A DNA stretch of 64,000 nucleotides from Nonlabens sp. Ci31 (GTDB lineage: Bacteria > Bacteroidota > Bacteroidia > Flavobacteriales > Flavobacteriaceae), in the NCBI RefSeq assembly GCF_012974865.1, contig NZ_CP043633.1:1550001-1614000 (forward strand). The letters run 5' to 3'. The position numbers and the translations under genes are program-made. Under the pieces are notes generated by a model. It was not told the DNA's origin, made no database searches, and was given only the letters and a program-made list of their open reading frames with translations. Positions 2 to 62,633 of this stretch are shown here, piece after piece. The stretch's first letter is position 1. Each line of letters starts with the position of its first letter.

Positions 2-835
2 AGATTGATCAATATTCCTACGTTCTACTTGTATAAAGAATATGGGATGTCGTTACAACAGCGTTTGTTTCCCTCTGTGATTAGTGAGCTCTCGCTTTCG
101 CGAAAGCGGATTTCTCAAACAACAAATTACCAATTCATTCCAGATAATGAGGTTTTTACAGATTATGTATTAGCTGAGGTTTCTCTTGGAGCAAGATGGA
201 GTCCAGCTAGTGAATATATGCGCACGCCAAAAGGATATCAAGAGATATCTAGAGGTTACCCTATTTTAAGTGGTCAAATTACACAAGGTATTAAAGGATT
301 TACAGAAAGTAATTTCAATTATCTTAAAGTATCAGCTAAGGTGGAGTACGCTTTTAAAAGACCGGATAAATCCAGTACAGAATTCTTATTAGAAGGTCAT
401 TACAGTGCAGGGGAAGTGCCGTTAACACATCTTTACCACGCGTATCCTAATGCGCCTAATAGAGATGAGATTTTACAACGATTCTCTGTTGCAGGAAGGC
501 GTAGTTTTGAAACCATGTATTTCAATGAGTTCTTTTCTGATAAGCTTACGGTAGGTCAGATAAAGCATCACTTTGCTCCTTTTAATATTTTTTCTTTTTT
601 AAAGCCAGAAATGGTTTTAATTTCTAAAGTTGCTTGGGGCGATTTAGACAACGCACAACGTCATCAAAATGTAACGATCAATACCTTAGAAAAAGGCTAT
701 TTTGAAAGTGGTTTTGAGTTGAATAAATTGCTATTTGGTTTTGGGTTGAGCGCGAGTTACCGTTATGGTGCTTATCATCTTCCTGATTTTGCAGATAATG
801 TGGCCGTAAAATTCACCTTCTATTTAGAGCTTTAA
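2..835 (+). CDS. DUF5686-type outer-membrane protein, C-terminal part (partial)
   Basis: The reading frame is open at the left edge, so only the last ~277 residues are present. The sequence matches my recollection of the C-terminal beta-barrel half of Bacteroidota DUF5686/carboxypeptidase-regulatory-like proteins: amphipathic strands, repeated aromatics, and an end in F-T-F-Y-L-E-L typical of a last barrel strand. The family usually has an N-terminal carboxypeptidase-D regulatory-like domain, which lies outside the window. A CGCTTTCGCGAAAGCG palindrome (93-108) is translated as LSRKR near residue 30. The function of the family is not established. The family call is by recognition only. Confidence 0.7.
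   Translation, partial: RLINIPTFYLYKEYGMSLQQRLFPSVISELSLSRKRISQTTNYQFIPDNEVFTDYVLAEVSLGARWSPASEYMRTPKGYQEISRGYPILSGQITQGIKGFTESNFNYLKVSAKVEYAFKRPDKSSTEFLLEGHYSAGEVPLTHLYHAYPNAPNRDEILQRFSVAGRRSFETMYFNEFFSDKLTVGQIKHHFAPFNIFSFLKPEMVLISKVAWGDLDNAQRHQNVTINTLEKGYFESGFELNKLLFGFGLSASYRYGAYHLPDFADNVAVKFTFYLEL
93..108. repeat. CGCTTTCGCGAAAGCG palindrome, copy 1
   Basis: Perfect 16-bp palindrome inside the DUF5686 gene, read as LSRKR. Other intact copies or core matches start at 3418, 5969, 8285, 21272, 25225, 29333, 35247, 40956, 45385, 50124, 51768, 57428, 60605 and 62172. A split copy lies at 16113-16149. The core CTTTCGCGAAAG is present in every intact copy. Confidence 0.95.
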
Positions 836-988
836 TACTCGAAAAAAACTGATGACAATTCCTATTAAATTACACCTTTACTTTGTTTGAAGCAAAGGTA
901 AAATTATCGATTCTGTTAAGGTTTCTTAATTTATACTGTGCACAGCACATTAAATAACTAATCGTTAAATAATCACACGTTTTAAAAG

Positions 989-996
989 TACATTTG
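989..996 (+). promoter_or_regulatory. -7 box TACATTTG upstream of the MMPL transporter
   Basis: Exact match to the Bacteroidota TAnnTTTG -7 element, 19 bp before the start codon at 1015. The surrounding GTACATTTGCA(C)GCCTTAAAAT is nearly identical to the prs promoter region at 13742. No clear TTG -33 box is seen at the expected distance. Confidence 0.5.
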
Positions 997-1014
997 CACG
1001 CCTTAAAATGATCC

Positions 1015-3405: not shown

Positions 3406-3417
3406 GATTTAAGTTTA

Positions 3418-3431
3418 GCTTTCGCGAAAGA
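3418..3431. repeat. Palindrome copy 2 (GCTTTCGCGAAAG)
   Basis: Core of the genome-wide palindrome just 3' of the MMPL gene, lacking the final CG. It is not followed by a T-run, so it does not look like a terminator. Confidence 0.85.
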
Positions 3432-3588
3432 TATAAGAATACCAATACCTCTCATTTACTTGCTATTTTTAATAATCCTTAGTTCCTTAGTACAAAATTA
3501 GGGAGGTAAAGAAGTTAACAAAGTTACTCATCAGTAATAATTTCATCTCCGGATGAGCTGTTCTCAAAATGCTTCTAGTAAAATGATC

Positions 3589-3609
3589 CTTACAAGATCA
3601 TCTTGTAAG
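3589..3609. repeat. Perfect 10-bp inverted repeat
   Basis: CTTACAAGAT and ATCTTGTAAG flank a single C. It lies in the decay zone between the MMPL gene and the transposase remnant. It could be an operator or a hairpin; no T-tract follows. Confidence 0.5.
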
Positions 3610-4310: not shown

Positions 4311-4418
4311 TAAATCTAAAATTTAGCGTATTAGAGGAGTGTTTGTATTTTTAGTTTGCAAAACCAACATACGGGATTCTCAAGCTTCTTTTAAAATTAA
4401 ACTTTCGGATAGTTGTGA

Positions 4419-5845: not shown

Positions 5846-5968
5846 GTTTCCAAATAATTTTAATAAATAGAAATCTAGTTGTTTATATTTTACTAGGGTA
5901 AAATTAAATGGAGTTGTGCTCTAAGCAGTATCATTGGTAGTTTGAAAGAAAGGTCTTCTCTTTTCTCA

Positions 5969-5982
5969 CTTTCGCGAAAGCG
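5969..5982. repeat. Palindrome copy 3 (CTTTCGCGAAAGCG)
   Basis: Intergenic copy, about 40 bp upstream of the asnS -33 box. Confidence 0.85.
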
Positions 5983-7682: not shown

Positions 7683-9143
7683 ATGCTTAAACAGTCACTA
7701 AATTTTAAATTATCTCAGAAGTTATCTCCTCAACAAATACAGTTGATGAAATTGATACAATTGCCGACTCAGGCTTTTGAGCAACGGGTAAAATCAGAAC
7801 TGGAAGAAAATCCGGCTTTAGATGACGGTAAAGAAAAAACAGATGATGAGTACGATGAGTTTTCTAATGAAGAAGATTACGAGGACGGAAATGAGTCTAT
7901 TGAAACAGACGATATTAATGTAGATGATTATCTGAGCGATGATGACATTCCTGAATACCGTACCAAAGCAAATAACTACAGCGCAGATGACGATGAGAAA
8001 AGCATTCCATATGCCGCTGGAAAATCCTTCACACAAACCTTATTAGAACAACTCAACACGCGCAGATTAAGTGAAGATCACAGAGCGATTGCAGAGTTTC
8101 TTGTGGGCAGCATCGATGCGAGTGGTTATATAAGAAGATCGCTGGAAGACATTACTGATGACCTTGCTTTTACCATGAATTTGTATACCGAAGTGGAAGA
8201 GGTGGAAAAAGTACTTAAAGTCGTTCATGAATTAGATCCTGCTGGGGTAGGAGCTCGTAATTTGCAAGAGTGTTTATTGTTACAGCTTTCGCGAAAGCGG
8301 AAAACAGAAAGTATTGAGATCGCCATAAAATTAATAAGAGATTCCTTTGATGCATTTAGTAAGAAGCATTATTCGAAAATCATGGCTAAATATGATATCA
8401 CGGAAGATGAATTGCGGGATGCAATAGACGATATAGAGCATTTAAACCCTAAACCTGGAGGTTCTTATGCTGGTGGAAGTACCCGAGTCGTAGAACAAGT
8501 AGTTCCTGATTTTACCATTAGAATCAAAGATGGAGAATTAGAACTCACACTTAATGGGCGTAATGCCCCAGAGTTGCACGTATCTAGAGATTATTCTAAT
8601 ATGTTGCGCGGGTATAAAGAGGCTAAAGAAAAAACCAAATCTCAAAAAGATGCGGTCATGTTTATCAAACAAAAATTAGATGGAGCTAAATGGTTTATAG
8701 ACGCTATTAAACAACGACAAGAAACCTTATTTGTCACCATGTCCACCATTATGCATTATCAGCAGGCGTATTTTCAATCTGGAGATGAGCGTAATTTAAG
8801 ACCTATGATCTTAAAGGATATTGCCGATAAGATTGATATGGATGTTTCTACGGTTTCTCGAGTGGCAAATTCTAAATATGTTGATACGCCATACGGAACT
8901 AAATTAATAAAAGTATTCTTCTCTGAATCTATGACCAATACGGATGGAGAAGAGGTTTCCACTAGAGAGATTAAAAAAATTCTAGAAACGGTTATCAATG
9001 ATGAAAGTAAGAAAAAGCCGCTTACAGATCAAAAACTAGCCGAATTGCTTAAGGAAAAAGGGTACCCTATTGCTCGTAGAACAGTTGCTAAGTACAGAGA
9101 ACAATTAGACATTCCTGTTGCACGCTTAAGAAAAGAGATTTAG
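7683..9143 (+). CDS. rpoN: RNA polymerase sigma-54 factor
   Basis: A 486-aa sigma-54. Region I is Gln/Leu-rich (LSQKLSPQQIQLMKLIQLPT, residues ~11-30) and binds enhancer-binding proteins. Region II is strongly acidic (about residues 45-95). The core-binding and HTH domains follow, and the RpoN box reads ARRTVAKYREQLDIP near the C-terminus. The length is normal. A palindrome copy (8285-8299) is translated LSRKR at about residue 202 in the core-binding domain, apparently tolerated. A weak promoter, TTG (7631) and TATTTTTA (7657-7664), lies upstream. The 201-aa membrane-protein gene begins 6 bp after the stop, so the two are probably co-transcribed. Confidence 0.97.
   Translation: MLKQSLNFKLSQKLSPQQIQLMKLIQLPTQAFEQRVKSELEENPALDDGKEKTDDEYDEFSNEEDYEDGNESIETDDINVDDYLSDDDIPEYRTKANNYSADDDEKSIPYAAGKSFTQTLLEQLNTRRLSEDHRAIAEFLVGSIDASGYIRRSLEDITDDLAFTMNLYTEVEEVEKVLKVVHELDPAGVGARNLQECLLLQLSRKRKTESIEIAIKLIRDSFDAFSKKHYSKIMAKYDITEDELRDAIDDIEHLNPKPGGSYAGGSTRVVEQVVPDFTIRIKDGELELTLNGRNAPELHVSRDYSNMLRGYKEAKEKTKSQKDAVMFIKQKLDGAKWFIDAIKQRQETLFVTMSTIMHYQQAYFQSGDERNLRPMILKDIADKIDMDVSTVSRVANSKYVDTPYGTKLIKVFFSESMTNTDGEEVSTREIKKILETVINDESKKKPLTDQKLAELLKEKGYPIARRTVAKYREQLDIPVARLRKEI
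8285..8299. repeat. Palindrome copy 4, inside rpoN
   Basis: GCTTTCGCGAAAGCG read in frame as LSRKR in the sigma-54 core-binding domain. Confidence 0.95.
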
Positions 9144-16112: not shown

Positions 16113-16149
16113 CGCTTTCCTGCCTGCCGGCAGGCATGGCGCGAAAGCG
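16113..16149. repeat. CGCTTTCGCGAAAGCG palindrome split by a second palindrome
   Basis: CGCTTTC (16113-16119) and GCGAAAGCG (16141-16149) are the two parts of the window-wide palindrome. Between them lie 21 bp containing the perfect palindrome TGCCTGCCGGCAGGCA (16121-16136). The arrangement looks like insertion of one repeat into another. Confidence 0.85.
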
Positions 16150-19867: not shown

Positions 19868-21658
19868 ATGCGTACTCTTTTTCTAGTTGTTGCGGTGCTT
19901 TCTTGTTCCATGGGCTTTGCTCAGGATTCTAAGCTTGCCGAAAACTATATGGATCAAGGGGAATATACTAAAGCGCTAAAAATCTATCAAAAAATATATG
20001 AACTCAACAAGCGCAATCCGAGGAGCGTGTTTGCTTTGGTAGAAGTTTATCAGCAATTAGAACGCTATGAAAGTGTAGATTCATTAATAGATATAGCTCA
20101 GAAAACAACAGCTCGTGATGAAATGTTTTCTATAGAAAGAGGGTACAATGCCACCTTGCAAGGAAAAGATAGTCTCGCCAGTACATACTATCAAAAAGCC
20201 ATAAAGGCCATAGATTCCCTACCACAACTCACCTACGGAATCGCTTATAGATTTGAACAACGCAATGAGCTAGAAGAGGCTATTACCGCCTATGAAAAGG
20301 GAATGGCGCTCAATGACAAGCTCAATTACAATTACCAGCTGGCTAGGTTATACGGCGAGCAAGGTAATCTAGAAAAGATGTTTGATACCAATATCAAAAT
20401 GATAGAGCAAAATGCGGTGTATCGTTCCCGCGCTCAAGCACTTTTTTCTCAATATGTAACCGATGATGCAGAGAATGAAGGAAATAAGATCTTAAGAAAA
20501 GTGTTGTTATTACGCTTACGTGAAAATCCAGACCCTATATACAATCAGCTGTTGTCATGGCTTTTTGTACAGCAAAAAGATTTTAAAAAAGCCTTTATTC
20601 AAGAAAAGGCCATTTATAAGCGTGATCAAACCAATATGTACAATATTCAAGATCTGGTAGAAACGGCTATAGATGAGAACGATCTGGAAGCAGCAGGAGA
20701 GATACTGGACTATATGATTGAAGAAACACCATCTATAAGTGTCAAGTATACAGCCCAAAGCCTTAGGATCAAATTAAGAGCTGATGCGGCAACCGCTGAA
20801 GCATATGAACTGATCAAACAAGATTATGAAAGTCTTTTAACCTATTACGGTAGAGATAAAGAAACCTTTAGATTGCAACTGGACTTTGCTAACTTCTTAG
20901 CATTCAAAATAAATCAACCTCAAGAGGCAAGTGATTTACTTGTCGCCTTAGAGAAAACAAGCTTGAGTAAATTTCAAAAAGCAGATGTAAAAATGTTACT
21001 GGCTGATATTCTTGTGTTGCAGGAGCAATTCAATAGAGCTCTGATTTATTACAGCCAGATTCAAAATGATTTGCCCAACGATTTACGTTCTCAGGAATCT
21101 CAATTTAAAGTAGCGCGTACCAGCTATTTTCAAGGCGATTTTCCTTGGAGCCTTACTCAGTTGAAGGTACTGCGCAGCGCTGCGAGTAAACTCATTGCAA
21201 ACGATGCAATGGAGTTAAGCCTGACTATTGCCGACCACTCTAAAGAAGACACTACTTTTGTTGCGCTGAAAGCTTTCGCGAAAGCGGAATTAAAACAATA
21301 TCAGAATAAAAGAGCTGAAGCCATCATTTTATACGATCAATTACTCTTAGATCACAAAGGAGATCCTATCGAAGATGAGGCCTTACTAAAACAAGCTCAG
21401 CTATACGAAGTAGAGGGAAGGTTTGAAAAAGCTAGAGACAACTACCAGGTGATCATCGATAATTATGGAGATGGAATCCTTGCAGATGATGCCTATTACA
21501 GAATGGGATTGTTGTATCAAGAACAACTCTCAGATCCTCAAAAAGCACAAGAGCTTTTTGAAAAAATAATATTTAACCATGCCGATAGTATTCATTTTGT
21601 AGATGCCCGCAGGCGCTATCGCAGGCTGCGTGGTGATGAAAATGAAAAGGCTTTTTAA
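19868..21658 (+). CDS. Secreted tetratricopeptide-repeat protein
   Basis: A 596-aa protein with a signal peptide (MRTLFLVVAVLSCSMGFAQ) followed by helical repeats over most of its length, e.g. AENYMDQGEYTKALKIYQKI (residues ~24-45) and, at the C-terminus, GRFEKARDNYQVIIDNYGDG, each with TPR spacing. A periplasmic scaffold or assembly role is inferred; no enzyme motif is seen. A palindrome copy (21272-21286) is read as AFAKA at about residue 470, inside a TPR helix. It lies 12 bp after serS and 23 bp before the DUF4286 gene. Confidence 0.85.
   Translation: MRTLFLVVAVLSCSMGFAQDSKLAENYMDQGEYTKALKIYQKIYELNKRNPRSVFALVEVYQQLERYESVDSLIDIAQKTTARDEMFSIERGYNATLQGKDSLASTYYQKAIKAIDSLPQLTYGIAYRFEQRNELEEAITAYEKGMALNDKLNYNYQLARLYGEQGNLEKMFDTNIKMIEQNAVYRSRAQALFSQYVTDDAENEGNKILRKVLLLRLRENPDPIYNQLLSWLFVQQKDFKKAFIQEKAIYKRDQTNMYNIQDLVETAIDENDLEAAGEILDYMIEETPSISVKYTAQSLRIKLRADAATAEAYELIKQDYESLLTYYGRDKETFRLQLDFANFLAFKINQPQEASDLLVALEKTSLSKFQKADVKMLLADILVLQEQFNRALIYYSQIQNDLPNDLRSQESQFKVARTSYFQGDFPWSLTQLKVLRSAASKLIANDAMELSLTIADHSKEDTTFVALKAFAKAELKQYQNKRAEAIILYDQLLLDHKGDPIEDEALLKQAQLYEVEGRFEKARDNYQVIIDNYGDGILADDAYYRMGLLYQEQLSDPQKAQELFEKIIFNHADSIHFVDARRRYRRLRGDENEKAF
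21272..21286. repeat. Palindrome copy 5, inside the TPR gene
   Basis: GCTTTCGCGAAAGCG read in frame as AFAKA. Confidence 0.95.
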
Positions 21659-22070: not shown

Positions 22071-22374
22071 GAAAACTGCGACTGAAAACTGCGACTGAAA
22101 ACTGCGACTGAAAACTGCGACTGAAAACTGCGACTGAAAACTGCGACTGAAAACTGCGACTGAAAACTGCGACTGAAAACTGCGACTGAAAACTGCGACT
22201 GAAAACTGCGACTGAAAACTGCGACTGAAAACTGCGACTGAAAACTGCGACTGAAAACTGCGACTGAAAACTGCGACTGAAAACTGCGACTGAAAACTGC
22301 GACTGAAAACTGCGACTGAAAACTGCGACTGAAAACTGCGACTGAAAACTGCGACTGAAAACTGCGACTGAAAA
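22068..22374. repeat. 13-bp minisatellite, 23 perfect copies plus a partial
   Basis: The unit ACTGAAAACTGCG is repeated 23 times without a mismatch (22068-22366), then a partial ACTGAAAA. It ends 10 bp before the TTG start of rsmA. The unit length is not a multiple of three; the long open frame on the minus strand is only a by-product of the repeat. Confidence 0.98.
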
Positions 22375-25191: not shown

Positions 25192-25224
25192 TTAGTAGTG
25201 GTGAAACGATCTGATTTAGGATTT

Positions 25225-25239
25225 GCTTTCGCGAAAGCG
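25225..25239. repeat. Palindrome copy 6, intergenic
   Basis: GCTTTCGCGAAAGCG between the oxidoreductase and the DUF58 gene, upstream of the chosen start. Confidence 0.95.
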
Positions 25240-35214: not shown

Positions 35215-35246
35215 GTTCATTGTAGTATTATTTTAAACTATCTTCA

Positions 35247-35260
35247 CTTTCGCGAAAGCG
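35247..35260. repeat. Palindrome copy 8, upstream of lacI
   Basis: CTTTCGCGAAAGCG in the leader region of the LacI-type gene, 32 bp before its ATG. Confidence 0.9.
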
Positions 35261-40896: not shown

Positions 40897-42846
40897 ATGA
40901 ATAGATTAGCCATTTTATTAAGTAGTGTTGTGTATCTCGCTTGTTCTTTTAATTTCGCTTTCGCGAAAGCGGACTTAAAAAACAGTTTATACCTCACTTG
41001 TTGCGGTACGAAAGCGGTACAAGCACCATCTATCGAGAGAGTAGAACCTCCTTTCTGGTGGACTGATATGGAACATTCTCAAGTGGAGGTGCTGTTATAT
41101 GGAGAAAATATAGCCAATTACTCTGCTCCAATTGATAGTGATTTACCAATAGTAAAAGTTCGTAAAACAGAGAATCCCAATTATCTGTTTTTGACTTTAG
41201 ACACTGCAAATGCCATTTCGGGTGATTATAAGATTCTTTTAAACGTTTACGATACCTATAATGTAATTGACTTTACCTTAAAGGAAAGAGAGTTTAATTC
41301 TAGATCAAGAAAAGGCTTCGATTCCAGTGACGCTATTTACCTAATCATGCCCGACCGATTTGCAAATGGGGACCCTTCTAACGATAGTACGGATGATACC
41401 CTAGAAAAAGTAAATCGAGAATTAAAAGGTGGTCGCCATGGAGGCGATATTCAAGGGATTATGGATCACTTAGATTATATCAATGAGTTAGGAGCTACTG
41501 CCATCTGGAGTACGCCTTTATTAGAAGATAATGATGAGCGTTATTCGTATCATGGTTATGCTCAAAGTGATTTGTATAAAATAGACCCAAGATACGGGAC
41601 AAACGCCGATTATAAACGACTGGGCGATGAGTTGCATAAAAGAGATATGAAATTGGTCATGGATTATGTGACCAACCATTGGGGCGCAACGCACTGGATG
41701 ATGCAGGATTTACCTACGCAAACCTGGATCCATCAATTTGATGATCATAAAGGAGAAGATTTTCCTGTTGCTGGATATGCCAACTCCTCTTACCGACAGA
41801 CCACACAAATGGATCCTAATGTCAGTAAAAGAGATGCTATTTATGCAGAGAAAGGTTGGTTTGTCAGTTCCATGCCAGACATCAATCAAAGTGATCCATT
41901 AGTTTTAAATTATTTGATTCAAAATACCATTTGGTGGATAGAATATGCTGGATTAGACGGGTTGCGCGTAGATACCTATTCCTATAATGAAAAGGAAGGC
42001 ATTGCAAAATGGACCAAAGCCATCATGGAGGAGTACCCTAACTTTAATATAGTAGGGGAAACTTGGTTACACGATCAAGCGCAAATTGCTTACTGGCAAA
42101 AAGATTCTAAAATCGCTGCCCTTCAGGATTACAATACACACTTGCCCAGCGTGATGGATTTTACTTTACACGATGCGATCACAAGTGCATTTAATGAAAA
42201 TGATCAAGGTTGGGACAAAGGAATGGTAAAAGTCTATGAGAATTTTGTCAATGACTTTTTATATCCGGATATTGATAATATCTTGGTTTTTGCAGGAAAT
42301 CACGATACCAATCGCATCAACGGCAACGGATTGTACAACGGCGATCTAGCCAAATACAAACTGGCTATGACTTTAGTGTTAACCACTAGAGGGATTCCGC
42401 AATTGTATTATGGTGATGAAATAGGAATGGGTGGTAACCGAGATACCGATGGTGACGGTGACATCAGAAGAGATTTTCCTGGAGGATGGAAAGGCGATGA
42501 GGGGAATGCTTTTAAAGAACCTACTCTAGAGCAAAAAGCCTTTCAAGAATTCACTAAGAAACTGCTGAATTATAGAAAGAATAAAGAAGTGATCCATAAT
42601 GGGAAATTACTTCAATACGTCCCTGAGAATAATTGTTATGTCTATTTTAGAGAAAATGGTGTCGATAGTGTGATGGTGATCATCAATAACAATCCAGAAG
42701 AAGTAACTTTAGACATTTCTAGATTCAAAGAAGGAATTTATACCGCAAAAGAAGGAACTAATATCTTGACAGATAAAAAAGTGAAACTGACTGCTGATTT
42801 AAAAGTCGCTGGTAAAACAAGCATGGTGATGGAATATAGTTTTTAG
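40897..42846 (+). CDS. susA: Periplasmic GH13 neopullulanase/cyclomaltodextrinase (SusA-like)
   Basis: A 649-aa protein. Signal peptide of ~25 residues ending in NFAFAKA, encoded partly by palindrome copy 9. The N-terminal cyclomaltodextrinase-type domain (IERVEPPFWWTDM) is followed by the GH13 barrel: MDYVTNHWG (region I), nucleophile in GLRVDTYSY, acid/base Glu in NIVGETWLH, and FAGNHDTNR (region IV), then a C-terminal beta domain. It should cut imported maltodextrins to maltose in the periplasm. The gene starts 3 bp after GH65. The mature N-terminus contains an unusual Cys pair (YLTCCGTK). Confidence 0.92.
   Translation: MNRLAILLSSVVYLACSFNFAFAKADLKNSLYLTCCGTKAVQAPSIERVEPPFWWTDMEHSQVEVLLYGENIANYSAPIDSDLPIVKVRKTENPNYLFLTLDTANAISGDYKILLNVYDTYNVIDFTLKEREFNSRSRKGFDSSDAIYLIMPDRFANGDPSNDSTDDTLEKVNRELKGGRHGGDIQGIMDHLDYINELGATAIWSTPLLEDNDERYSYHGYAQSDLYKIDPRYGTNADYKRLGDELHKRDMKLVMDYVTNHWGATHWMMQDLPTQTWIHQFDDHKGEDFPVAGYANSSYRQTTQMDPNVSKRDAIYAEKGWFVSSMPDINQSDPLVLNYLIQNTIWWIEYAGLDGLRVDTYSYNEKEGIAKWTKAIMEEYPNFNIVGETWLHDQAQIAYWQKDSKIAALQDYNTHLPSVMDFTLHDAITSAFNENDQGWDKGMVKVYENFVNDFLYPDIDNILVFAGNHDTNRINGNGLYNGDLAKYKLAMTLVLTTRGIPQLYYGDEIGMGGNRDTDGDGDIRRDFPGGWKGDEGNAFKEPTLEQKAFQEFTKKLLNYRKNKEVIHNGKLLQYVPENNCYVYFRENGVDSVMVIINNNPEEVTLDISRFKEGIYTAKEGTNILTDKKVKLTADLKVAGKTSMVMEYSF
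40956..40971. repeat. Palindrome copy 9, in the susA-like signal peptide
   Basis: CGCTTTCGCGAAAGCG encodes AFAKA at the signal-peptide end, as in the secreted amylase. Confidence 0.95.
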
Positions 42847-43146: not shown

Positions 43147-45504
43147 ATGAAAAAACTAATTGTCCTATTTGCAGCTTTGCTCCTACTTAGCTGCGGTACA
43201 AAAGAAGAAAACACACTCGATAGAAGAGCTAGTGTGATCGAGGTGATGACGACTCCGGTTTATGAATCTTCTCAAGGAAACACAGCTGTTCTATATGCCG
43301 ATTATCTAGGAATAAAAAAGGCAGATAGTGTCACTTTAGGTTACGGAATTACGCAGCGGGAATCTGTTCCTATAGACAGCGTTTATACTTTTAAGATGGA
43401 AGAAGACGCTCCATTTATTTCCCATATCACTTTATGGACAGAAGGGATCAGAAACGATGTTCCTGTTTTTAAAAGCAACAGTAAGATCATTGAAATCCCT
43501 TATAATGGGAATTTTAAAAATGTTACCATAAAAGGAGAGTTTACCAATTGGGCGAGTAAAGAATTAGAGTATAACGGAGAAGAGTTAGTTTACAAAGCAA
43601 GGGTGCCACAAGGCAAGTTTCAATACCTTTTCTTAGAAGGTGGAAATGAAGAAACACTAACAGGAAATGAACCCGGTGTTATTAGCAATGGAATGGGAGG
43701 TTTTAATCGGTTGTTAGACAACAGTCGCCTGGCAGATCCAGCTCAACTTTTTTACGGAGAAATCATAGATCAAGGTTTTACTTTTAAAGCTTCTGGAGGG
43801 CTAGATAATGTGGTGGCACTTTATGAAAACCAGCTTATAGAAGCGGTGAAGACCAAAAACCAAAACACCTACACGGTCAATTTGCCTGAAAAAGATTTCT
43901 CAAAGCGTATTTCAAAAACACAATTGGTACGAGTTTATGCCAGCGATGCAAATGGACGTACCAACGACTTGTTGATTCCGGTTCAAAATAGACAAGTTGT
44001 AAAAGATCCTAGTCAATTAGCTCGTAGTGATTTCCATACGCAAATATTGTATTTTATGATGGTAGATCGTTTCCTTGACGGAGATAGAGCCAATACAAAG
44101 CCAGTGCCAGATCCAGAGGTTTTGCCTAAAGCTAACTATATGGGTGGTGATCTGGCTGGCATTTTGGCAAAGATCAAAGAGGGTTATTTTGAAGACTTGG
44201 GAATCAATACTGTTTGGTTATCGCCTATTACTCAAAATCCAGAGGGCGCTTATGGATTGTGGCCAGAGCCGCGCACAAAGTTTAGCGGTTATCATGGCTA
44301 CTGGCCTATTTCTAATACAAAGGTTGATGATAGATTTGGAGATGAAAAGATCCTAAAAGAAATCATCAAAGAAGCGCACAAACGCGATATGAATGTCATT
44401 CTAGATTATGTGGCAAATCATGTACATGAAGAACATCCTTTATATAAACAACACCCAGAATGGGCGACTAATTTATATCTAGAAGACGGAAGCTTAAACA
44501 CAGAGCGCTGGGACGACCATCGTTTGACAACTTGGTTTGATACTTTTATGCCTACCCTGGATTTTTCAAAACCAGAAGTGGTAGAAAAAATGACAGATTC
44601 TGCTTTATATTGGGTAACTGAATATAAGCTGGACGGTTTCCGTCATGATGCGACCAAACATGTTCCGGAAATTTACTGGAGAACACTAACTCAAAAAGTA
44701 CGTAAAAATACCGACAGACCCATTTATCAAATAGGGGAAACCTACGGCTCTTACGATTTGATAAGAAGCTATGTAAGCACGGGAATGCTGGATGCCCAAT
44801 TTGACTTCAACCAGTATGATGCTGCGGTGAGTGCTTTTGCTACAAAAGATGGGAACTATGCAAATCTTACAGAGACGCTTCAAAAAGGATTGGAATATTA
44901 CGGTCACCATCACTTAATGGGGAATATTTCTGGAAATCAAGACCGAGCAAGGTTTATAAGCTATGCGAGTGGTGATGTAAAGTTTGATGAAGATGCTAAA
45001 AAAGCGGGCTGGACTCGTGAAATAATGATGAGCGATTCTACCGCTTTTGATCGATTGGGAATGTTGCAAGCTTTTAATATGACTATGCCAGGTGTGCCGG
45101 TTATTTATTATGGCGACGAGTACGGTTCTATAGGAGCAAACGACCCTGATAATCGCAAGATGATGAAGTTTAACGGCCTTTCAGATCGGGAGAAGAACCT
45201 GCGTCAACTGGTGCAGGAATTGGTGCATTTGAGACGCAATTCCATGTCTTTACTTTATGGAACTACACAAGTGATGGCAGAGAATAATGGGTTGCTGGTG
45301 ATCAAGCGCAGCTATTTTGGAGAAGAAACGACCATTTTCTTTAATGAAAATGCCATTAGTATGAATATAGCGGGAAATGATGCACGCTTTCGCGAAAGCG
45401 GAACCGCAATAAACGCCATAGAAACAGATAAAAACTTCCAGATAAAACCTGGTAACTTTATGATTTTACAGATCAAAAGTAAAAAAAGCAATACGCCAAA
45501 TTAA
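43147..45504 (+). CDS. GH13 alpha-amylase-family lipoprotein (large)
   Basis: A 785-aa lipoprotein with lipobox LLLLSC then GTKEEN. An E-set/CBM48-like domain near residues 115-160 (VTIKGEFTNWASKEL) precedes the GH13 barrel: LDYVANHVHEEH, nucleophile Asp in DGFRHDATKHV, acid/base Glu in YQIGETYGSY. Region IV reads NISGNQDRARF, so the usual His of N-H-D is Gln. A palindrome copy (45385-45400) is read RFRES in the C-terminal beta domain. It is probably anchored in the periplasm or outer membrane and acts on maltodextrins; linkage specificity is unknown. Confidence 0.9.
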   Translation: MKKLIVLFAALLLLSCGTKEENTLDRRASVIEVMTTPVYESSQGNTAVLYADYLGIKKADSVTLGYGITQRESVPIDSVYTFKMEEDAPFISHITLWTEGIRNDVPVFKSNSKIIEIPYNGNFKNVTIKGEFTNWASKELEYNGEELVYKARVPQGKFQYLFLEGGNEETLTGNEPGVISNGMGGFNRLLDNSRLADPAQLFYGEIIDQGFTFKASGGLDNVVALYENQLIEAVKTKNQNTYTVNLPEKDFSKRISKTQLVRVYASDANGRTNDLLIPVQNRQVVKDPSQLARSDFHTQILYFMMVDRFLDGDRANTKPVPDPEVLPKANYMGGDLAGILAKIKEGYFEDLGINTVWLSPITQNPEGAYGLWPEPRTKFSGYHGYWPISNTKVDDRFGDEKILKEIIKEAHKRDMNVILDYVANHVHEEHPLYKQHPEWATNLYLEDGSLNTERWDDHRLTTWFDTFMPTLDFSKPEVVEKMTDSALYWVTEYKLDGFRHDATKHVPEIYWRTLTQKVRKNTDRPIYQIGETYGSYDLIRSYVSTGMLDAQFDFNQYDAAVSAFATKDGNYANLTETLQKGLEYYGHHHLMGNISGNQDRARFISYASGDVKFDEDAKKAGWTREIMMSDSTAFDRLGMLQAFNMTMPGVPVIYYGDEYGSIGANDPDNRKMMKFNGLSDREKNLRQLVQELVHLRRNSMSLLYGTTQVMAENNGLLVIKRSYFGEETTIFFNENAISMNIAGNDARFRESGTAINAIETDKNFQIKPGNFMILQIKSKKSNTPN
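45385..45400. repeat. Palindrome copy 10, in the GH13 lipoprotein gene
   Basis: Read in the third possible frame as RFRES. Confidence 0.95.
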
Positions 45505-49636: not shown

Positions 49637-50224
49637 ATGCAGGTGTTGAATACAAATGCGATGCGAACGGTAAAATCTTCTGGGATTGATTATTTTCATT
49701 TTACAGAACAGGAGCAACACGGGGTAGGTTTTGGAGAACGACTTTCTAATTCTTTACAAGACGTTTTTGATAAAGGATATGAGTCGGTGATCTGTCTCGG
49801 TAATGACACCCCTTTATTGACACTTTCACTTATTCAAGATGCAGCAGCAGCACTGGAAACCGGTAAAGCTGTAAAAGGAAAGTCACTTGATGGGGGCCTT
49901 TATTTGATTGGTTTGCATAAAAAGGTGTTTGATAAAGTTTCTTTCAGAGCATTGCCTTGGCAATCGTCAGGTTTGGCTGTTGCTTTTCATGAATATATTG
50001 CTTCGCAAAATCAAAAATTACTCGTTTTAGAATCCCTAGCCGATATAGACACGGAGCAAGATCTGGAAGATTTTCTCGCAGGGAAAGATGCTCGTGATTC
50101 GATCATAAGAATGCTTTTAATCGCGCTTTCGCGAAAGCGCAACAATTACAAACACTTAAAAGAATCACTATCTTATGTTCTTTTTTCAAAGCCTTTGAAT
50201 AAAGGATCACCGCAGGCAGCTTGA
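49637..50224 (+). CDS. DUF2064 (TIGR04282-like) arsenosugar-associated glycosyltransferase
   Basis: From the first ATG this gives 195 aa. The family's N-terminal nucleotide-binding strand is encoded upstream: the same frame from 49535 reads ITIKKEVSNTAILLFAQTAK and runs into this ATG without a stop. No ATG, GTG or TTG precedes it after the arsS stop, so translation probably starts at ATA 49535 (or another non-canonical codon), or continues from arsS. The GT-A-like core is seen in VICLGNDTPLLTLSLI and SLDGGLYLIGLHK. It would add a sugar-linked group in arsenosugar synthesis. The C-terminal tail contains ALSRKR from palindrome copy 11. Confidence 0.8.
   Translation: MQVLNTNAMRTVKSSGIDYFHFTEQEQHGVGFGERLSNSLQDVFDKGYESVICLGNDTPLLTLSLIQDAAAALETGKAVKGKSLDGGLYLIGLHKKVFDKVSFRALPWQSSGLAVAFHEYIASQNQKLLVLESLADIDTEQDLEDFLAGKDARDSIIRMLLIALSRKRNNYKHLKESLSYVLFSKPLNKGSPQAA
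50124..50139. repeat. Palindrome copy 11, in the DUF2064 gene
   Basis: Extended here to GCGCTTTCGCGAAAGCGC; read as ALSRKR near the C-terminus. Confidence 0.95.
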
Positions 50225-50275: not shown

Positions 50276-53200
50276 ATGAAGAGAATTACTCTATTCATGC
50301 TACTTCTATGCGGTTTTATAGGAGCAGCTCAAATTTCTATTACGGGTAAAATTAGCGATACTGCTGGTGATCCCATTGCTTTTGCAAATATCTCGGAGCG
50401 TGGCACTCAAAACGGCACAACTACAGATGCTAATGGTTTTTATAGCTTAACAGTTGCAAATAATGCCGTACTCGTATGTTCTTATATAGGGTACCAAACG
50501 GCAATAATTCCTGTTCGAAAGGAAGTAACCATTAACGTGACTCTTGAAGAAGGAGATCAACTAGAAGCTGTAGTAGTCACCGCACTAGGGGTCAAACGTA
50601 AAGAGCGAGAGTTAGGATATGCCGTTCAAACGCTAGATGCTGAGCAAATTCAAGAAGTAAAATCAGTCAATCTAATCGATAACCTACAAGGTAAAATTGC
50701 GGGAATCACAGTAACTCCTGGCGCAACTGGTGTGGGATCTTCTTCAAAAATTACCATCAGAGGTGAAGCGAGTTTCTCTAATAACAACCCGCTGTTTATT
50801 GTGGATGGCACCCCAATAAATAACAATACGGTGTTTAACTTTTCTAATGAAGCAGCTGCTGGTTTTCAAGAAGTCGATTTTGGAAATGGTGCAGGAGAAG
50901 TAAATCAAGACGATATTGAAAGTGTTTCTGTTCTTAAAGGCCCAGCCGCCGCGGCCCTTTATGGAACTCGTGCAGCAAACGGGGCGATCATTATAGAAAC
51001 TAAAAACGCTGGTAGAAACAAAGGAATGGGTATTTCATATAACACGAGTTTCTTTGTGGACAGTGCTTTTAAATTACCAGAATTTCAAAACGAATACGGT
51101 CAAGGAAACAGCGGTCAGTTTGAATATGTAGATGGTCTAGGTGGTGGTATCAACGATAACATTACTTATTCTTGGGGTCCACGACTGGATCAAGGGATCT
51201 TGATACCGCAATTTGATAGTCCGGTGACTTTACCTGATGGAACCGTGGTGCGTGGTGGCGATACTTCCTTATACAGCGGTTTACCCATTACAGCAACTCC
51301 TTTTAATAGCAACCCTGACAACCTTAAGAATTTTTACAATACGGGTTATACAGCGATCAATAATATCGCGATTACAGACGGTTTTGAAAATGGAAACTAC
51401 CGCTTAAGCTTCACAGATTTGCGCAGTGAAAGCATTATTCCTGGTGTGGATTTGGATCGACAGACGGTTGCTGCAAAATTGAATTTTACACCTAACGATA
51501 AAACAAAAGTCAGAGCGAGTATCAACTATGTGAATAGTGCTTCTGGAAACCGTCCATCAAACGGTTATGGAAGTGAAAATGTAAATTATTCACTGGTCGC
51601 CTGGGGCCCGCGTTCTTTAAATATCGACAATTTGAGAAATTACTGGCAGCCAGGTTTGGAAGGCGTGCAGCAGTATTCTTTTAATTACACCTTTTTTGAT
51701 AATCCGTATTTTATTCTACAGGAAAATCGCAATAGTTTTGCTCGTGATCGGTTGTTTGGAAATGTCTCGCTTTCGCGAAAGCTAACGCCAGATCTTACTG
51801 CAACGGTGCGAACAGGAATGGATTACAGTAGTGAAAAACGAAGGTTTATACGTAATTTTTCTACCAACAGATTTAGAAATGGAGCCTATGCAGAGCACGA
51901 TGTATTTTACAGAGAGATCAATACCGACTTCTTGTTGAACTATAAAAAGCAATTGGGTGTGATTAATTTTGACGCCAGTGTAGGAGGAAATCGATTATCG
52001 CAAATGGCGTCTACTACACAAGTGCAAACGACCAGTCTCGCGCAACCAGGCATTTTTTCTTTGAATAATGCGGCTAGCCCTATTGAGAGTTTTGGCTTTA
52101 GAAGTGAGAAGCGTATCAATAGCTTGTATGCCTTTGCAAAAGCAGGCTATAAAAATTTCCTTTATGTGGATGTAACCGCCAGGAACGACTGGTCTAGTGC
52201 ACTAGCAACACCTTTTAGTGCCTATAACACCTCATTTTTCTATCCGTCAGTTTCTACCAGTTTTATTTTGAGTAATGTAGTGAATTTACCCAGCGCCATT
52301 GACTTTGCTAAGATCAGAGCCAGTTATGCGCAAGTAGGAAATGATACCAGCCCTTACCAAACTCAAGGAACTTTTATTTCACAAACAAATGTGAACTCAC
52401 AACCTACTTTTAGCAATCAAGACTTTATTCCCAATCAAAATTTAAGACCAGAGCTCACATCGAGTGTGGAGTTGGGATTTGATGTTAGATTTTTAAAACA
52501 GCGCCTCAATCTGGACGTTACCTATTACAACTCCTTAACTAAAGATCAGATTCTTTCTTTGCCTATAGGTATCGCTTCAGGCTTTAGTCAGCAAGTAGTC
52601 AATGCAGGTACCGTAAGAAACAAAGGTTTTGAAGTAGTCTTAAATGCTATTCCGTTAAGAACAGCTGATTTTGAATGGAGTGCTACGGTCAATTTTGCTA
52701 CTAACCGAGCCATAGTAGAAGATTTGCCTCAAGAAGACGGAAGATTAACACTAGCTTATTCGAGGGTTTATGACAGTCAAGATCAAACCGTATGGCATCA
52801 AGTAGAAGAAGGTGGCCGTATAGGTGATCTTTATGGAACTGGTTATTTACGAAATGAAAATGGAGATTTTGTACTCACAGCAGAAGGACGCTTTATTGCC
52901 GATCCTGAATTGAGGAAATTAGGAAACTACCATGCCGATTTCACCATGGGATTCAATAATTCGTTTACTTATAAAAATTGGGATGCCTCTTTCTTATTAG
53001 ACTGGAGACAAGGCGGAATTATCGTTTCAAGAACATTGGCCCTTGGTGCAGTAGGTGGACAGCTCGCTGAGACAGCTAACAGACCCGATGGAGGAATCGT
53101 TGCAAACGGTGTGATCAATACGGGAACTGCAACAAACCCTACTTATGTTCAAAATACTACGGCCGTTAGTGCAGAGAGTTATTACCGACAGTTTTACGAC

Positions 53201-57129: not shown

Positions 57130-57935
57130 ATTTAGGTAAAAAATCAGGCAAAATGCTCCTTTTTGGTGGTGTTTACAGCAATTTACAGGCCCTTTCCAGC
57201 CTGACACAAATGGCACAAGAATACCATATTCCACCAGAAAACTGTATTTGTACGGGGGATATCATCGGTTATTGTGGGCAGCCGCAAGAAACTTTAGATA
57301 AGTTTAAAGACTGGGGAGCACACAGTATTTTAGGAAATGTAGAAATCCAATTGCGAGATGATGAAGAAGACTGTGGTTGTGATTTTACGGAAGGATCTCG
57401 TTGTGATGGATTTAGTGAGATTTGGTACGCTTTCGCGAAAGCGAACCTACACTCCAATACCAGAGATTTTTTCAAGTCCCTACCAGATCATATTAGATTT
57501 GATTATGCGGGCAAGAAAATAGGAGTCGTACACGGAAGCTACGATCAGGTTTCCCAATTTGTATTTAAATCTACCGATTGGCAGGAAAAACAAGCCAGTC
57601 TAGCTGCTTTACAAGCTGAGGTAATCATCGCAGGACATTGTGGTTTGCCATTCGTAGATCAACAAGAAGATCAACTCTGGCTCAATGCAGGAGTGATAGG
57701 CATGCCGGCAAATGATGGAAACAGCGAGACTTGGGCGATGCTTATAGATGATGCTAACGGCTTTGAATACAAGCACATTCAATTGTCCTACGATTACCTA
57801 ACTGCTATAGAAGAAATGAAGAAAAATCACCTTCCACAAGAATATGCACAGACCTTAGAAACTGGGATTTGGGATAACATGGAGATTTTGCCAGAAGAGG
57901 AGCGATTGCTTCAAGGGAAAAAATTTTATCTCTAA
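57111..57935 (+). CDS. Metallophosphoesterase-fold protein with lost metal ligands
   Basis: A 274-aa protein of the YfcE/MJ0936-like calcineurin fold. Fold motifs can be aligned: KMLLFGGVYSNLQAL where D-x-H-x-N-L is usual (Asp to Gly, His to Tyr), CTGDIIGYCG (Asp kept), LGNVEIQL (Asn kept, next residue changed), VVHGSYDQ (His kept), and IIAGHCGLPF in place of G-H-T-H-x-P (second His lost). A Cys-rich loop CGCDFTEGSRC lies at ~residue 85. It may be inactive or use an altered metal site. The ATG at 57111 overlaps the symporter end. Palindrome copy 13 reads AFAKA. Confidence 0.8.
   Translation: MDKKIIDLGKKSGKMLLFGGVYSNLQALSSLTQMAQEYHIPPENCICTGDIIGYCGQPQETLDKFKDWGAHSILGNVEIQLRDDEEDCGCDFTEGSRCDGFSEIWYAFAKANLHSNTRDFFKSLPDHIRFDYAGKKIGVVHGSYDQVSQFVFKSTDWQEKQASLAALQAEVIIAGHCGLPFVDQQEDQLWLNAGVIGMPANDGNSETWAMLIDDANGFEYKHIQLSYDYLTAIEEMKKNHLPQEYAQTLETGIWDNMEILPEEERLLQGKKFYL
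57428..57443. repeat. Palindrome copy 13, in the phosphoesterase-fold gene
   Basis: CGCTTTCGCGAAAGCG read as AFAKA. Confidence 0.95.
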
Positions 57936-59883: not shown

Positions 59884-60024
59884 CTAGTTGTTTTTAGTTT
59901 AATATAAATCTATTTCAAACTTTCTTATAAAAATTTTATTGAGGTGTAATTTTATGAATTTTTATTATTGTAATTTTAATTACAAAGTTCTATAGAATAA
60001 AATTTAATCAATCACCTAATTCAC
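59884..60024. other. AT-rich spacer
   Basis: Very A/T-rich gap upstream of the small membrane-protein gene; no clear element beyond scattered T-runs. Confidence 0.4.
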
Positions 60025-60195
60025 ATGATCCCTTCTTGGTTTTATAAATTCCTTATCGCCATGTGCGTTATCAGTCTTTGCATCATAGGTTATAAAATAG
60101 CCGATGGCGAGCAGGACCGGAGTTTTATATGGTTTGGTTTTTTGTTTTTAATGGCCATTTGGTATGCCTTAAGGCAATTGCGATCAAAAGATTAA
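60025..60195 (+). CDS. Small membrane protein (56 aa)
   Basis: ATG to TAA gives MIPSWFYKFLIAMCVISLCI, then an IGYKIADGEQDRSF linker and a second hydrophobic stretch (FIWFGFLFLMAIWYALRQ), ending LRSKD. Two TM helices with a short polar loop and a positive end look like a real small membrane protein. It lies 65 bp upstream of the App1-like gene on the same strand. Function unknown. Confidence 0.65.
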   Translation: MIPSWFYKFLIAMCVISLCIIGYKIADGEQDRSFIWFGFLFLMAIWYALRQLRSKD

Positions 60196-60260
60196 ATACC
60201 TAGAAATTTATTAACGTGCATTCCTGAAAACAGTTCGTTTAAATCCATTATTTTCACACC

Positions 60261-61289
60261 ATGGCAATCTTTAAACGCGATCCCTGGATTCTTGATGTTT
60301 ACCGCACCTATAGTGGTGGAAATCACCTGTACCTGCGTGGTCGTGCCTTAGAAGACCAGCCGCTAAAGCATTATGAGCAGCAAACACTTTATCAAACACT
60401 GCGCAATACCTGGCGTACTTTTGCTACCGACGAGATTAGAAATGCACAAGTACGACTCACGCTTTCGAACGGGAAATTATTTGAGGTAAAAGCAGATCAT
60501 GAAGGTTATTTTCTCTTTGATATCAAAACCGATTTCAATTTGCACGAGCTCACTGATAAGGAAGGATACTTGCTTATTAGCGTCGGTTTTGATGAGGATA
60601 ATGCCGCTTTCGCGAAAGCGAAACAACAAAAGCGTCTCAAATTCAATAAGTTTACCGGTGAGACTTTAGTGCCGCCAAAGGATGCTGCTTATGGAGTCAT
60701 AAGCGATATAGACGATACGATCATGCACACGGGGGTGACTAGTTTTTTAAAAATGCGAGTGGCTTTTAACACTTTTTTTAAAAATTACGATCGCAGGTTG
60801 CCCTTAATAGGAGCTGCTAGTTTTTACCAGTTATTGCACCGAGGCCCGTCTTCTGAAGATCAAAACCCCATGTTCTATTTGAGTAATAGTCCTTGGAATT
60901 TATATAAATATTTAGAGAAGTTTCTAGATTTTCATGGGTTTCCTAAGGGGCCTATTTTGCTCCGAGATTTTCCTACTCCATGGGATCGAACGCCAAAATT
61001 AAAAAGATCACATAAGGAAAACGAACTGGTCAATATCCTTAAGCATTACCCACATATGAGTTTTATACTTATAGGTGACAGTGGCGAGCACGATGTGGAT
61101 TATTACAAAGTCGTAGCTCAACGATTCCCGGACCGTATCATGGCTATTTATTTAAGATCTGTAGACCACAAAAAGAAAATGCAACGAGTAAAATCTATTG
61201 CAGACAGTTTTACTATTTGCCCGATGTTGTTAATTAAGGAGTCCAAAGAAGCGGTCGCACATGCCAGAGAGAATGGTTGGATAGTTTAA
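60261..61289 (+). CDS. App1-type phosphatidate phosphatase (DUF2183)
   Basis: A 342-aa protein. The N-terminal beta-rich domain (residues ~1-140) is followed by a HAD-like catalytic domain with DxDxT in YGVISDIDDTIMHTG (~residue 155), ending with FILIGDSGEHDVDYY, the App1/DUF2183 signature. The yeast homologue dephosphorylates phosphatidate; the bacterial role is inferred. A palindrome copy (60605-60620) encodes AFAKA in the N-terminal domain. A hexamer/hairpin repeat module follows the stop. Confidence 0.9.
   Translation: MAIFKRDPWILDVYRTYSGGNHLYLRGRALEDQPLKHYEQQTLYQTLRNTWRTFATDEIRNAQVRLTLSNGKLFEVKADHEGYFLFDIKTDFNLHELTDKEGYLLISVGFDEDNAAFAKAKQQKRLKFNKFTGETLVPPKDAAYGVISDIDDTIMHTGVTSFLKMRVAFNTFFKNYDRRLPLIGAASFYQLLHRGPSSEDQNPMFYLSNSPWNLYKYLEKFLDFHGFPKGPILLRDFPTPWDRTPKLKRSHKENELVNILKHYPHMSFILIGDSGEHDVDYYKVVAQRFPDRIMAIYLRSVDHKKKMQRVKSIADSFTICPMLLIKESKEAVAHARENGWIV
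60605..60620. repeat. Palindrome copy 14, in the App1-like gene
   Basis: CGCTTTCGCGAAAGCG read as AFAKA. Confidence 0.95.
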
Positions 61290-61455
61290 AGAACTCGAAC
61301 TCGAACTCGAACTTGAACTTGAATTTGAACTCGAACTCGAACTTGAAAGCTCCTTCCTTTTAGGGAAGGTTGGGATGGGTGTTGCAGTAATTATAAGGTG
61401 GAGAAAGCTATAAACAGATTCCGCATCAAGTGCGGAATGACAATTGAATAAAAGT
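61290..61455. repeat. Composite repeat module after the App1-like gene
   Basis: A run of nine GAACTC/GAACTT/GAATTT hexamers (61291-61344), then CTCCTTCCTTTTAGGGAAGG and TTGGGATGG, then GAGAAAGCTATAAACAGATT leading into the hairpin TTCCGCATCAAGTGCGGAA (61419-61437) and ATGACA. The same order occurs at 55620-55750. Confidence 0.85.
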
Positions 61456-61532
61456 AGCTTCCACCCTTTAAGGTTTGGGGAAGAAGCATAAAATCAAAAA
61501 TCAAAAATCTTCAAACGTTAATCTTCAATCAT

Positions 61533-62633
61533 TTACCCCAATACCCCTTTCTGCTTATTATAAAAAGCATCGGCTTGTTTTTTTAGGAGCTCTCTAGCTA
61601 TTTTTTTCTTATAGGCGTACAGTTCGTCCTCGTCTGCGATGTCCTTGTAGATCCGGTTGTTTAATTCTTTATCGGTTTGTACGAGTACAGTCTGCTGCTG
61701 TTTTTGCTGGGTGACCCAAGATAGAACCAGGCCTTCTCTCTCTGCAAATTTGTAGTCGTATTCTCCTTTGGGTGATAATAATTTGGCAATTATAGGTGAG
61801 GTTTCAATAGCTAGAAACAATAAGAAGATGAAGAAAGAGGTAATAAAAGGCAATTTATTCAAGGCCTCGATACGTGCCATCAATCCGTCAAAGTTTTCTA
61901 TAATTGGTTGTGAAGCTGCTAGCTGCTCTGTTTTAAGGGTATTTAAGTCGGCTAATTGTAATTCTATGGCTGCTATTTTCTCCGCATTTGTTGTTTTCAA
62001 TTCCTTAAGATCGGCTAGTGCGGCGTCGTGTTTTTCTCGTTTCTCTTTATAGACAGGTCCTTTGCCCAGCTTGTTTGTTCCAGAGGTTCCTTCGGCTTCT
62101 GTGATGTAAGTGGAGTAGAGTGCTTCTACTTCTACTTCTTTTGTGGTGATTTCAGATTTTAATTCTTGTATCGCTTTCGCGAAAGCGGACACCTCAACAG
62201 CAAATAACGCCCCAACTTGCTCTTGATTATTTAAAGTCATCGCTAGTTTCTCCTCCAGTAAAACTTGATTAATTTCTTTCTCAAAAATCTTTAGCTCCAA
62301 GGGTTTTGAAATGACAACAGCGATGATAATTGCCAAAACAATACGAGGAGCAGCTTGCCATAACTCGTTGATTTTACGATCACTTTTCTTGAGTGTAGAA
62401 ACAATATAGCGATCCAGATTAAAGATCAATAAACCCCAGACGAGGCCCAAAGCACTCGCGATCCAGTAGCTATCAAAAACGGTAAATAAGGCATAACTCG
62501 CGGCAATAAACGCCATTAGCGCCGTAAAGAATACCGTTGCGCCTATACCGGCATATTTATTACGCTCGCCAGCGCTGCACTGGTCTAGCAATGGAGTATC
62601 AGCGCCGCTACAAAAGATGAAAAAGGATTGCAT
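61533..62633 (-). CDS. DUF4407 domain membrane protein
   Basis: A 366-aa protein. The N-terminus MQSFFIFCSGADTPLLDQCS is typical of DUF4407. TM helices lie at residues ~27-50, 58-80 and 92-112, a long coiled coil (about 145-250, rich in E, K, L) follows, and a fourth TM sits near 258-280 (LPFITSFFIFLLFLAIETSP). The function is unknown. A palindrome copy (62172-62187) reads AFAKA at the start of the coiled coil. Confidence 0.88.
   Translation of the reverse strand: MQSFFIFCSGADTPLLDQCSAGERNKYAGIGATVFFTALMAFIAASYALFTVFDSYWIASALGLVWGLLIFNLDRYIVSTLKKSDRKINELWQAAPRIVLAIIIAVVISKPLELKIFEKEINQVLLEEKLAMTLNNQEQVGALFAVEVSAFAKAIQELKSEITTKEVEVEALYSTYITEAEGTSGTNKLGKGPVYKEKREKHDAALADLKELKTTNAEKIAAIELQLADLNTLKTEQLAASQPIIENFDGLMARIEALNKLPFITSFFIFLLFLAIETSPIIAKLLSPKGEYDYKFAEREGLVLSWVTQQKQQQTVLVQTDKELNNRIYKDIADEDELYAYKKKIARELLKKQADAFYNKQKGVLG
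62172..62187. repeat. Palindrome copy 15, in the DUF4407 gene
   Basis: CGCTTTCGCGAAAGCG read as AFAKA on the minus strand. Confidence 0.95.

Follow-up and report, generated by a model that had tools for sequence, protein, structure and literature searches.

An iterated palindrome of Nonlabens genomes as a candidate DNA-uptake signal

The window analysed here, a stretch of 64,000 nucleotides from the chromosome of Nonlabens sp. Ci31 (NZ_CP043633.1, positions 1,550,001 to 1,614,000), contains 15 exact matches to the 12-bp core CTTTCGCGAAAG, eight of which are extended to the full 16-bp palindrome CGCTTTCGCGAAAGCG. Which process repeats such a long self-complementary word, within genes as well as between them? 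Our answer, to which we assign a probability of roughly one half, is that the palindrome may act as a genus-specific DNA-exchange signal working like the uptake signals of the Pasteurellaceae, and would then represent a new kind of DNA-uptake signal.

Abundance and spacing of the palindrome

The word was counted throughout the 3,740,082-bp single-contig genome and in related genomes, a check proposed in an earlier sequence-only reading of the window. The genome holds 504 cores and a single copy of the reversed word used as control; the count lies far above the control, and the chance-level abundance named by that reading as speaking against its proposal was not found. Each of the 22 other Nonlabens genomes searched (2.5-3.9 Mb) carries 297-879 copies. 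Outside the genus, nine of 76 relatives contain 1-7 copies and 67 none; a phylum-wide sample of 394 other genomes, overlapping partly with the 76 relatives, has at least one copy in 89 genomes and a maximum of 11, and 72 orthologous loci (1.40 Mb) have zero copies. Among the genomes searched, the word is abundant only in Nonlabens. Near-copies are scarce, with 74 exact, 11 one-mismatch and 6 two-mismatch cores in 464 kb. Pooled loci of Winogradskyella, Maribacter and mixed origin, which are syntenic and therefore weakly informative on the palindromes of other genera, showed no dominant palindrome of their own near the Nonlabens level. Open-access full text yielded no paper with the 12-mer or the 16-mer (matches were obtained only for the shorter TTTCGCGAAA), and an iterated palindrome in Nonlabens is unnamed among the literature matches listed. 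We know of no signal of such architecture in Bacteroidota.

Two genomes outside Nonlabens stood out in these counts. In one of another genus (G033) all seven copies lie on one 554-kb contig (G033:C18, L255), so that either the contig is a contaminant or its copies came by transfer from Nonlabens; a plasmid search by megablast with 15 kb of L255 gave short matches only. In another (G226) four copies occur within 16 kb.

Within the window, the 16-mer at up to three mismatches occurs 16 times, compared to a mean of 0.09 in 100 dinucleotide shuffles, and a 12-mer scan returned no core at exactly one mismatch. A recount bore out the 15 cores plus one split copy (16115-16147) of the sequence-only reading as well as its tally of 11 copies in coding sequence, read as AFAKA (6), LSRK (4) and RFRES (1). 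The copy at 25226 falls within the first codons of a TTG-started open reading frame (ORF) and was taken as leader, so that four copies lie outside genes. The features are the following; palindromes have no strand assigned, and G-numbers denote congeners.

93-108: palindrome, exact 16-mer, within ORF 5-835, LSRKR; intact in G009
3417-3432: palindrome, 12-bp core, intergenic; outside congener alignments
5967-5982: palindrome, 12-bp core plus 3' CG, intergenic; outside congener alignments
8284-8299: palindrome in rpoN, LSRKR; intact in G009 and G002
16115-16147: split palindrome, intergenic; CTTTC, a 21-bp insert with a GCCTGCCGGCAGGC hairpin, GCGAAAG
21271-21286: palindrome in a TPR protein gene, AFAKA; intact in G009 and G002
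25224-25239: palindrome in a gene leader or first codons; intact in G009 and G002
29333-29348: palindrome in an alpha-amylase gene (minus strand), likely signal peptide, AFAKA; intact in G009 and G002
35245-35260: palindrome between divergent genes; intact in G009 and G002
40956-40971: palindrome in a cyclomaltodextrinase-type gene, likely signal peptide, AFAKA; intact in G002, G009 unaligned
45385-45400: palindrome in an alpha-amylase gene, RFRES; 6 of 7 aligned congeners keep the core, with a single mismatch in G019
50124-50139: palindrome in a DUF2064 gene, LSRKR; imperfect forms in 6 of 9 aligned congeners
51768-51783: palindrome in a TonB-receptor gene, LSRKL; equal-length orthologues without palindrome, growth by substitution
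52122-52151, plus strand: YAFAKAG-coding stretch without palindrome; palindrome present here in eleven congeners
57428-57443: palindrome in a metallophosphoesterase gene, AFAKA; 13 of 14 aligned congeners keep the core; other peptides of equal length in loci outside the genus
60605-60620: palindrome in an APP1-type gene, AFAKA; G009 without palindrome, AFAKA retained
62172-62187: palindrome in a DUF4407 gene (minus strand), AFAKA; intact in G009, G002 and G013

The copies are evenly spaced in three species. For the first 100 sites of the genome the coefficient of variation of the gaps is 0.69, and 2 of 99 gaps are shorter than 1.5 kb versus 17.8 expected at random; the coefficients are 0.49 in G016 (37 gaps) and 0.51 in G004 (33 gaps), with gaps listed for one contig each. 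Counts in 34 stretches of 20 kb taken at round coordinates gave a dispersion index of 0.45 (lower-tail p 0.003). Such regularity also suits the chief rival explanation, which we consider unlikely: the palindrome would be bound inside the cell by an abundant dimeric protein, specific to the genus and acting in chromosome organisation or segregation, with selection keeping one site per few kb. Against it, the 34 stretches revealed no density trend around the chromosome (circular-linear R2 0.016, permutation p 0.78), and known chromosome-organiser sites are far fewer and looser.

Four site-poor stretches were picked on purpose and 18 of their ORFs were searched. One is a site-free island of 33-35% GC (L236-L237, G000:C1:488001-520500) with AAA_23, ResIII helicase, DUF4007 and class-V aminotransferase genes, which resembles a Dnd-type defence cluster. 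A second has 34% GC and a third is a glycosyltransferase cluster of 33% GC; the fourth is considered below.

Anatomy and origin of the unit

The anatomy was derived from 196 sites (104 from this genome and 92 congeneric), i.e. 392 half-sites. The sequence-only reading was right about the word itself, and the unit proved larger than it had seen, consisting of the 16-bp dyad and A/C-rich arms that extend about 44 bp from the dyad. Read outward, a half-site is CGAAAGCG R A A, followed by A-rich, G-poor sequence to about position 44. The frequencies after C G A A A G are C 98%, G 86%, R, A 66% and A 60%; further A peaks appear at positions 14, 17 and 20, positions 32-40 are A-rich, the G content of positions 11-28 is 3-14%, and background composition is regained beyond about position 44. 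Positions 1-6 defined the site set and are thus fixed by construction, accounting for 12 of about 20 bits per half.

Base-for-base mirroring between the two arms of a site was no greater than in permuted pairs (200 sites), so the arms look like two independent half-sites, as expected for a dimeric protein, and not as a stem. Compensation between half-sites was rejected: the rank correlation is negative at positions 9-14 (rho -0.22), positive at positions 25-44 (0.18) and absent for positions 7-24 together. This dyad symmetry with independent half-sites also counts in favor of the intracellular binder, which would explain the dyad more directly than an uptake signal does. Two other candidates were rejected. 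The flanks looked polar at first, as in an oriented (KOPS- or Chi-like) motif, and the profile turned out to be dyad-symmetric; hairpin or cruciform pairing of the arms showed no excess and a deficit at positions 15-20 (z -3.3).

In coding copies the arms are visible at third codon positions. G amounts to 3.4% in downstream codons 1-4 versus about 16% far away, a deficit that over ten codons reaches a Fisher p of 1e-14, and upstream C amounts to 4-10% in codons 1-4 versus 17%. That the arm is seen at these positions points to selection or drive acting on the DNA. A and C rise and both G and T fall at third positions downstream, which is why C-to-T damage was rejected as the source of the arms. 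The reading phases AFAKA, LSRK and RFRES are used in a ratio of 91:36:20 (147 coding copies; the counts rest on crude longest-ORF gene calls), and this unequal use shows a protein cost too. Of 124 coding copies, with orthologous ones counted separately, 24 fall within the first tenth of their ORF. AFA-KA resembles a signal-peptide cleavage site, and two window copies probably lie in signal peptides.

Outside called ORFs we found 31 of 112 sites versus 14.4% of bases (crude ORF calls), and 20 of 74 in another set. This share of 27-28%, together with the self-complementarity of the word, would be compatible with a transcription terminator or RNA hairpin. We regard this as very improbable: convergent spacers hold only 6 of 52 sites, yet make up 19% of intergenic bases, the downstream arm is A/C-rich and not T-rich, arm bases lack pairwise covariation, and most copies are inside genes.

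At the sites tested, copies grow by point substitution and not by insertion: orthologues that lack the word are as long as those that have it, both in congener alignments and in the 72 loci outside the genus. The site at 51768 is occupied in several congeners by a TCTTTAACTCAAGAGTTGACA-type sequence as long as the palindrome that others carry there, and partial forms are seen as well. The 72 loci outside Nonlabens code at 57428 for peptides such as WYPYAKSKL, versus WYAFAKANL or a close form in eight Nonlabens loci, six of which have an intact core, and the alignment is gapless. When 67 congeneric sites were aligned to the window, 46 were intact there and 21 were not; 20 of these 21 relative-only sites are gap-free over 30 bp, these sites falling at only two window positions. 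The sequence-only reading had described a mobile or selected short element and had proposed orthologue alignments to separate clean insertions from growth by substitution; these alignments favored substitution, so that "selected" stands and "mobile" does not. The same peptides in unrelated genera, which it had named as a result against its view, were absent from the 72 loci at the one site tested. A mobile element that spreads by insertion, such as a repetitive extragenic palindrome (REP) or a palindromic element of the Rickettsia type, would account for dispersed near-identical copies; equal-length orthologues refute it at the sites tested, and a 16-bp insertion would shift the frame of a gene, which leaves this explanation with next to no credit.

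Cores are conserved beyond their surroundings. Window cores are intact in 45 of 66 aligned comparisons with congeners, and in G009 and G002 in 11 of 12 each, compared to 33% and 7.6% of other 12-mers, respectively. The arm score is above 0 in 29 of 31 one-mismatch copies listed (means: 6.7 for exact copies, -7.6 for random positions). AFAKA is coded without the palindrome in G009 at 60605 and in the window at 52122-52151; these stretches are either fossils of former sites or precursors.

The split copy at 16115-16147 is a clean 21-bp insertion, CTGCCTGCCGGCAGGCATGGC, between CTTTC and GCGAAAG, and the palindrome at this site is uninterrupted in G009 and G002. At up to three mismatches the split form occurs 13 times in this genome (G000), 7 times in G004 and 6 times in G007 (L112-L137), and in none of the other 20 Nonlabens genomes; the search pattern held both palindrome halves, so that insertions elsewhere are uncounted and the insertion point is fixed by the pattern. 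Of five CTGCCGGCAG words in the examined loci, three are inside a palindrome, one of those being degenerate. Near-identical hairpins inserted at the same point in three species suggest that the site can open and, together with the palindrome left uninterrupted in two congeners at the only site where this was compared, lend some weight to a recombination or break hotspot, at which cutting or resection of the dyad would be followed by repair that copies the site. We hold this to be improbable, as an allele that is cut at its own site normally gives way to the uncut one, and the A/C-rich, G- and T-poor third positions downstream are insufficiently explained by C-to-T damage alone.

Phages and candidate machinery

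A 16-mer scan of viral_contigs (IMG/VR) returned 41 stretches on 30 contigs, several of them GC-rich and unrelated. Two temperate-type phage lineages (among L074-L111) carry the palindrome, lineage A (11 contigs) with 29 cores in 158 kb and lineage B (8 contigs) with 21 cores in 94 kb, densities that are inflated because the contigs were found by the motif. Lineage A encodes an integrase, tape measure, portal and HK97-type capsid, and the capsid has its best named relative, at 61% identity, on a 2.89-Mb contig from Nonlabens sp. SCSIO 43208. In lineage B the terminase resembles that of Winogradskyella phage Peternella_1 (54.5%), and another protein is 51% identical to the annotated DDE transposase of this phage. 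Its terminase gene contains the palindrome read as AFAKA where Peternella has KAAKQ at equal length, and the N-terminus of its portal contains the palindrome read as RFRES. The palindrome in such structural genes is a possible tag for temperate phages of Nonlabens. The isolated Nonlabens phages P12024L and P12024S, which are close kin, have no core at up to two mismatches in 70.6 kb, and the features listed for them (56 of 58 and 59 of 59) include neither an integrase nor a transposase; at the same threshold Peternella_1 has no core and phi39:1 one two-mismatch word. In Pasteurellaceae, uptake signal sequences (USS) are described as accumulating in temperate and not in large, likely lytic phages (PMC6776037). 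An intracellular binder would lead one to expect accumulation in phages only with long residence in the chromosome.

Transformation of Riemerella anatipestifer is described as requiring ComEC, DprA, ComF and RecA plus four proteins without relatives in known machines, two of which, a DUF5689 protein and an outer-membrane protein of the CarboxypepD_reg type, are neighbours (PMC8459023); a preference for self DNA has been reported for Riemerella columbina (PMC7965970). In this genome a DUF5689 protein lies beside a CarboxypepD_reg outer-membrane protein (L040:14674-18966; adjacency seen in G000 only), a pair that matches that of Riemerella by domain and adjacency. A split palindrome is located just upstream of the pair (L040:19126-19158). 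DUF5689 was found in 22 of 23 Nonlabens, the exception (G012) being a 77% complete genome, and ComEC in all 23. DUF5689 is present in 6 of 7 other family members searched as well, and the candidate machine alone can therefore not explain the restriction to the genus. The DUF5689 protein has no convincing PDB relative by sequence (one match, E 0.3) and none by profile.

Candidate binders and modifying enzymes were also searched for. Each Nonlabens genome encodes one strong HTH_ParB protein, with weak extra matches in G014, G018 and G019 only; the ParB/Noc paralogue was rejected, and the lack of a genus-wide paralogue of this type weakens the intracellular binder. Genus-wide cognate methylases were rejected for the three families searched (other families were not searched): 9 of 23 Nonlabens lack any match to the C5 methylase PF00145 and 11 of 23 any to the N6/N4 methylase PF01555, the D12 methylase PF02086 matches in only 4 of 23, and G006, G007 and G009 (685, 776 and 577 copies) have no match to any of them. 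This patchiness disfavors a HIP1-like origin, in which a cognate DNA methyltransferase together with methyl-directed mismatch repair would generate the word; such an origin would fit an iterated palindrome of substitution origin within and between genes. Core and arms also exceed the length of a typical methylase site, and we rate this explanation a shade below the hotspot. For HIP1, the account by methylase and mismatch repair is the Elhai model (PMC4390886).

Proposed uptake signal and comparison with known systems

How would an uptake signal produce this pattern? The site would be bound by a symmetric, presumably dimeric, receptor for DNA that belongs to a transformation machine of the Flavobacteriaceae type, one working without the usual pilus ATPase, and site-bearing fragments would be taken up and recombined more often. 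Because such fragments are exchanged more, alleles with the site would replace alleles without it, and sites would rise to about one per 4-8 kb, where more on the same fragment add little. Biased exchange would spread the signal through core genes and temperate phages. The candidate machine comprises the DUF5689 surface protein beside the outer-membrane CarboxypepD_reg protein, plus ComEC. A more specific proposal, put forward tentatively and at somewhat less than even odds, joins these parts: an uptake signal of new architecture (a 16-bp dyad flanked by oriented, roughly 30-bp A/C arms, a symmetric receptor and a Flavobacteriaceae machine lacking the usual pilus ATPase), spread by biased exchange, whose palindrome may also serve as landing site of a 21-bp hairpin parasite.

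Several observations weigh against an uptake signal. The fourth site-poor stretch holds ordinary core genes (pgi, mfd-like, TonB receptors) and does not fit an island. Distant congeners keep fewer window sites (e.g. 0 of 3 in G005), and individual sites thus turn over. The named homologues of phage lineage B come from other Flavobacteriaceae or the wider Bacteroidota and none supports a Nonlabens host, so that only the motif points to this host. The PilB/PilT-type ATPase of pili and type II secretion systems (PF00437) exceeded the cut-off in 3 of 23 Nonlabens, this genome not among them (other pilus parts were not searched); no genus-specific receptor or other trans-acting protein was found, and the literature matches listed from open-access full text include no report of competence in Nonlabens. 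In addition, known uptake sequences are described as non-palindromic (PMC1939737).

Uptake signals have been described for Pasteurellaceae and Neisseriaceae, and the question is whether such a drive operates elsewhere and how its specificity evolves. A long, genus-limited dyad with equal-length outgroups and partial sites in sister species makes the growth of a signal traceable base by base. The palindrome also provides an entry point to the still unexplained transformation genes of Flavobacteriaceae and can serve as a sequence tag by which Nonlabens DNA is recognised in metagenomes; if uptake is the wrong explanation, a symmetric DNA-binding protein with hundreds of exact sites is still to be found. 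As an observation apart from the palindrome, the window contains a tandem array with a 13-bp period at 22074-22371, in which AACTGCGACTG begins each 13 bp, 23 times.

Among known systems, parS/Noc-type sites share a short dyad with TTTC/GAAA elements; their half-site register differs by one base from that of the Nonlabens palindrome, which moreover occurs in hundreds of copies in a genus without a genus-wide ParB paralogue. HIP1 of cyanobacteria (GCGATCGC) is likewise an iterated palindrome in coding and non-coding DNA, but is 8 bp long as compared to 16 bp plus long arms and occurs about once per kb as compared to once per 4-8 kb, and Nonlabens has no genus-wide methylase among the three families searched. 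The likeness "in spirit" to HIP1 or uptake sequences drawn by the sequence-only reading is upheld; its interpretation as a whole holds in part, even spacing, genus restriction and phage copies having been beyond its view. The feature set fits uptake signal sequences better than any other system known to us. USS are described as not being insertions and as having flanking motifs about one helical turn apart (PMC1626085); they are evenly spaced and, in H. influenzae, lie mostly in genes and more often between genes than expected (PMC1939737). With the USS of Pasteurellaceae and the DNA uptake sequences (DUS) of Neisseriaceae the Nonlabens word shares a tight consensus, hundreds of copies, origin by substitution, even spacing, location in genes with an intergenic excess, conserved flanking segments and possibly accumulation in temperate-type phages, a likeness drawn from sequence. 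It differs in that its core is a perfect dyad, the clade is unrelated and the pilus ATPase is mostly absent, and because dyad, clade and machine differ from USS, we call the palindrome uptake-signal-like and do not file it as a member of that class.

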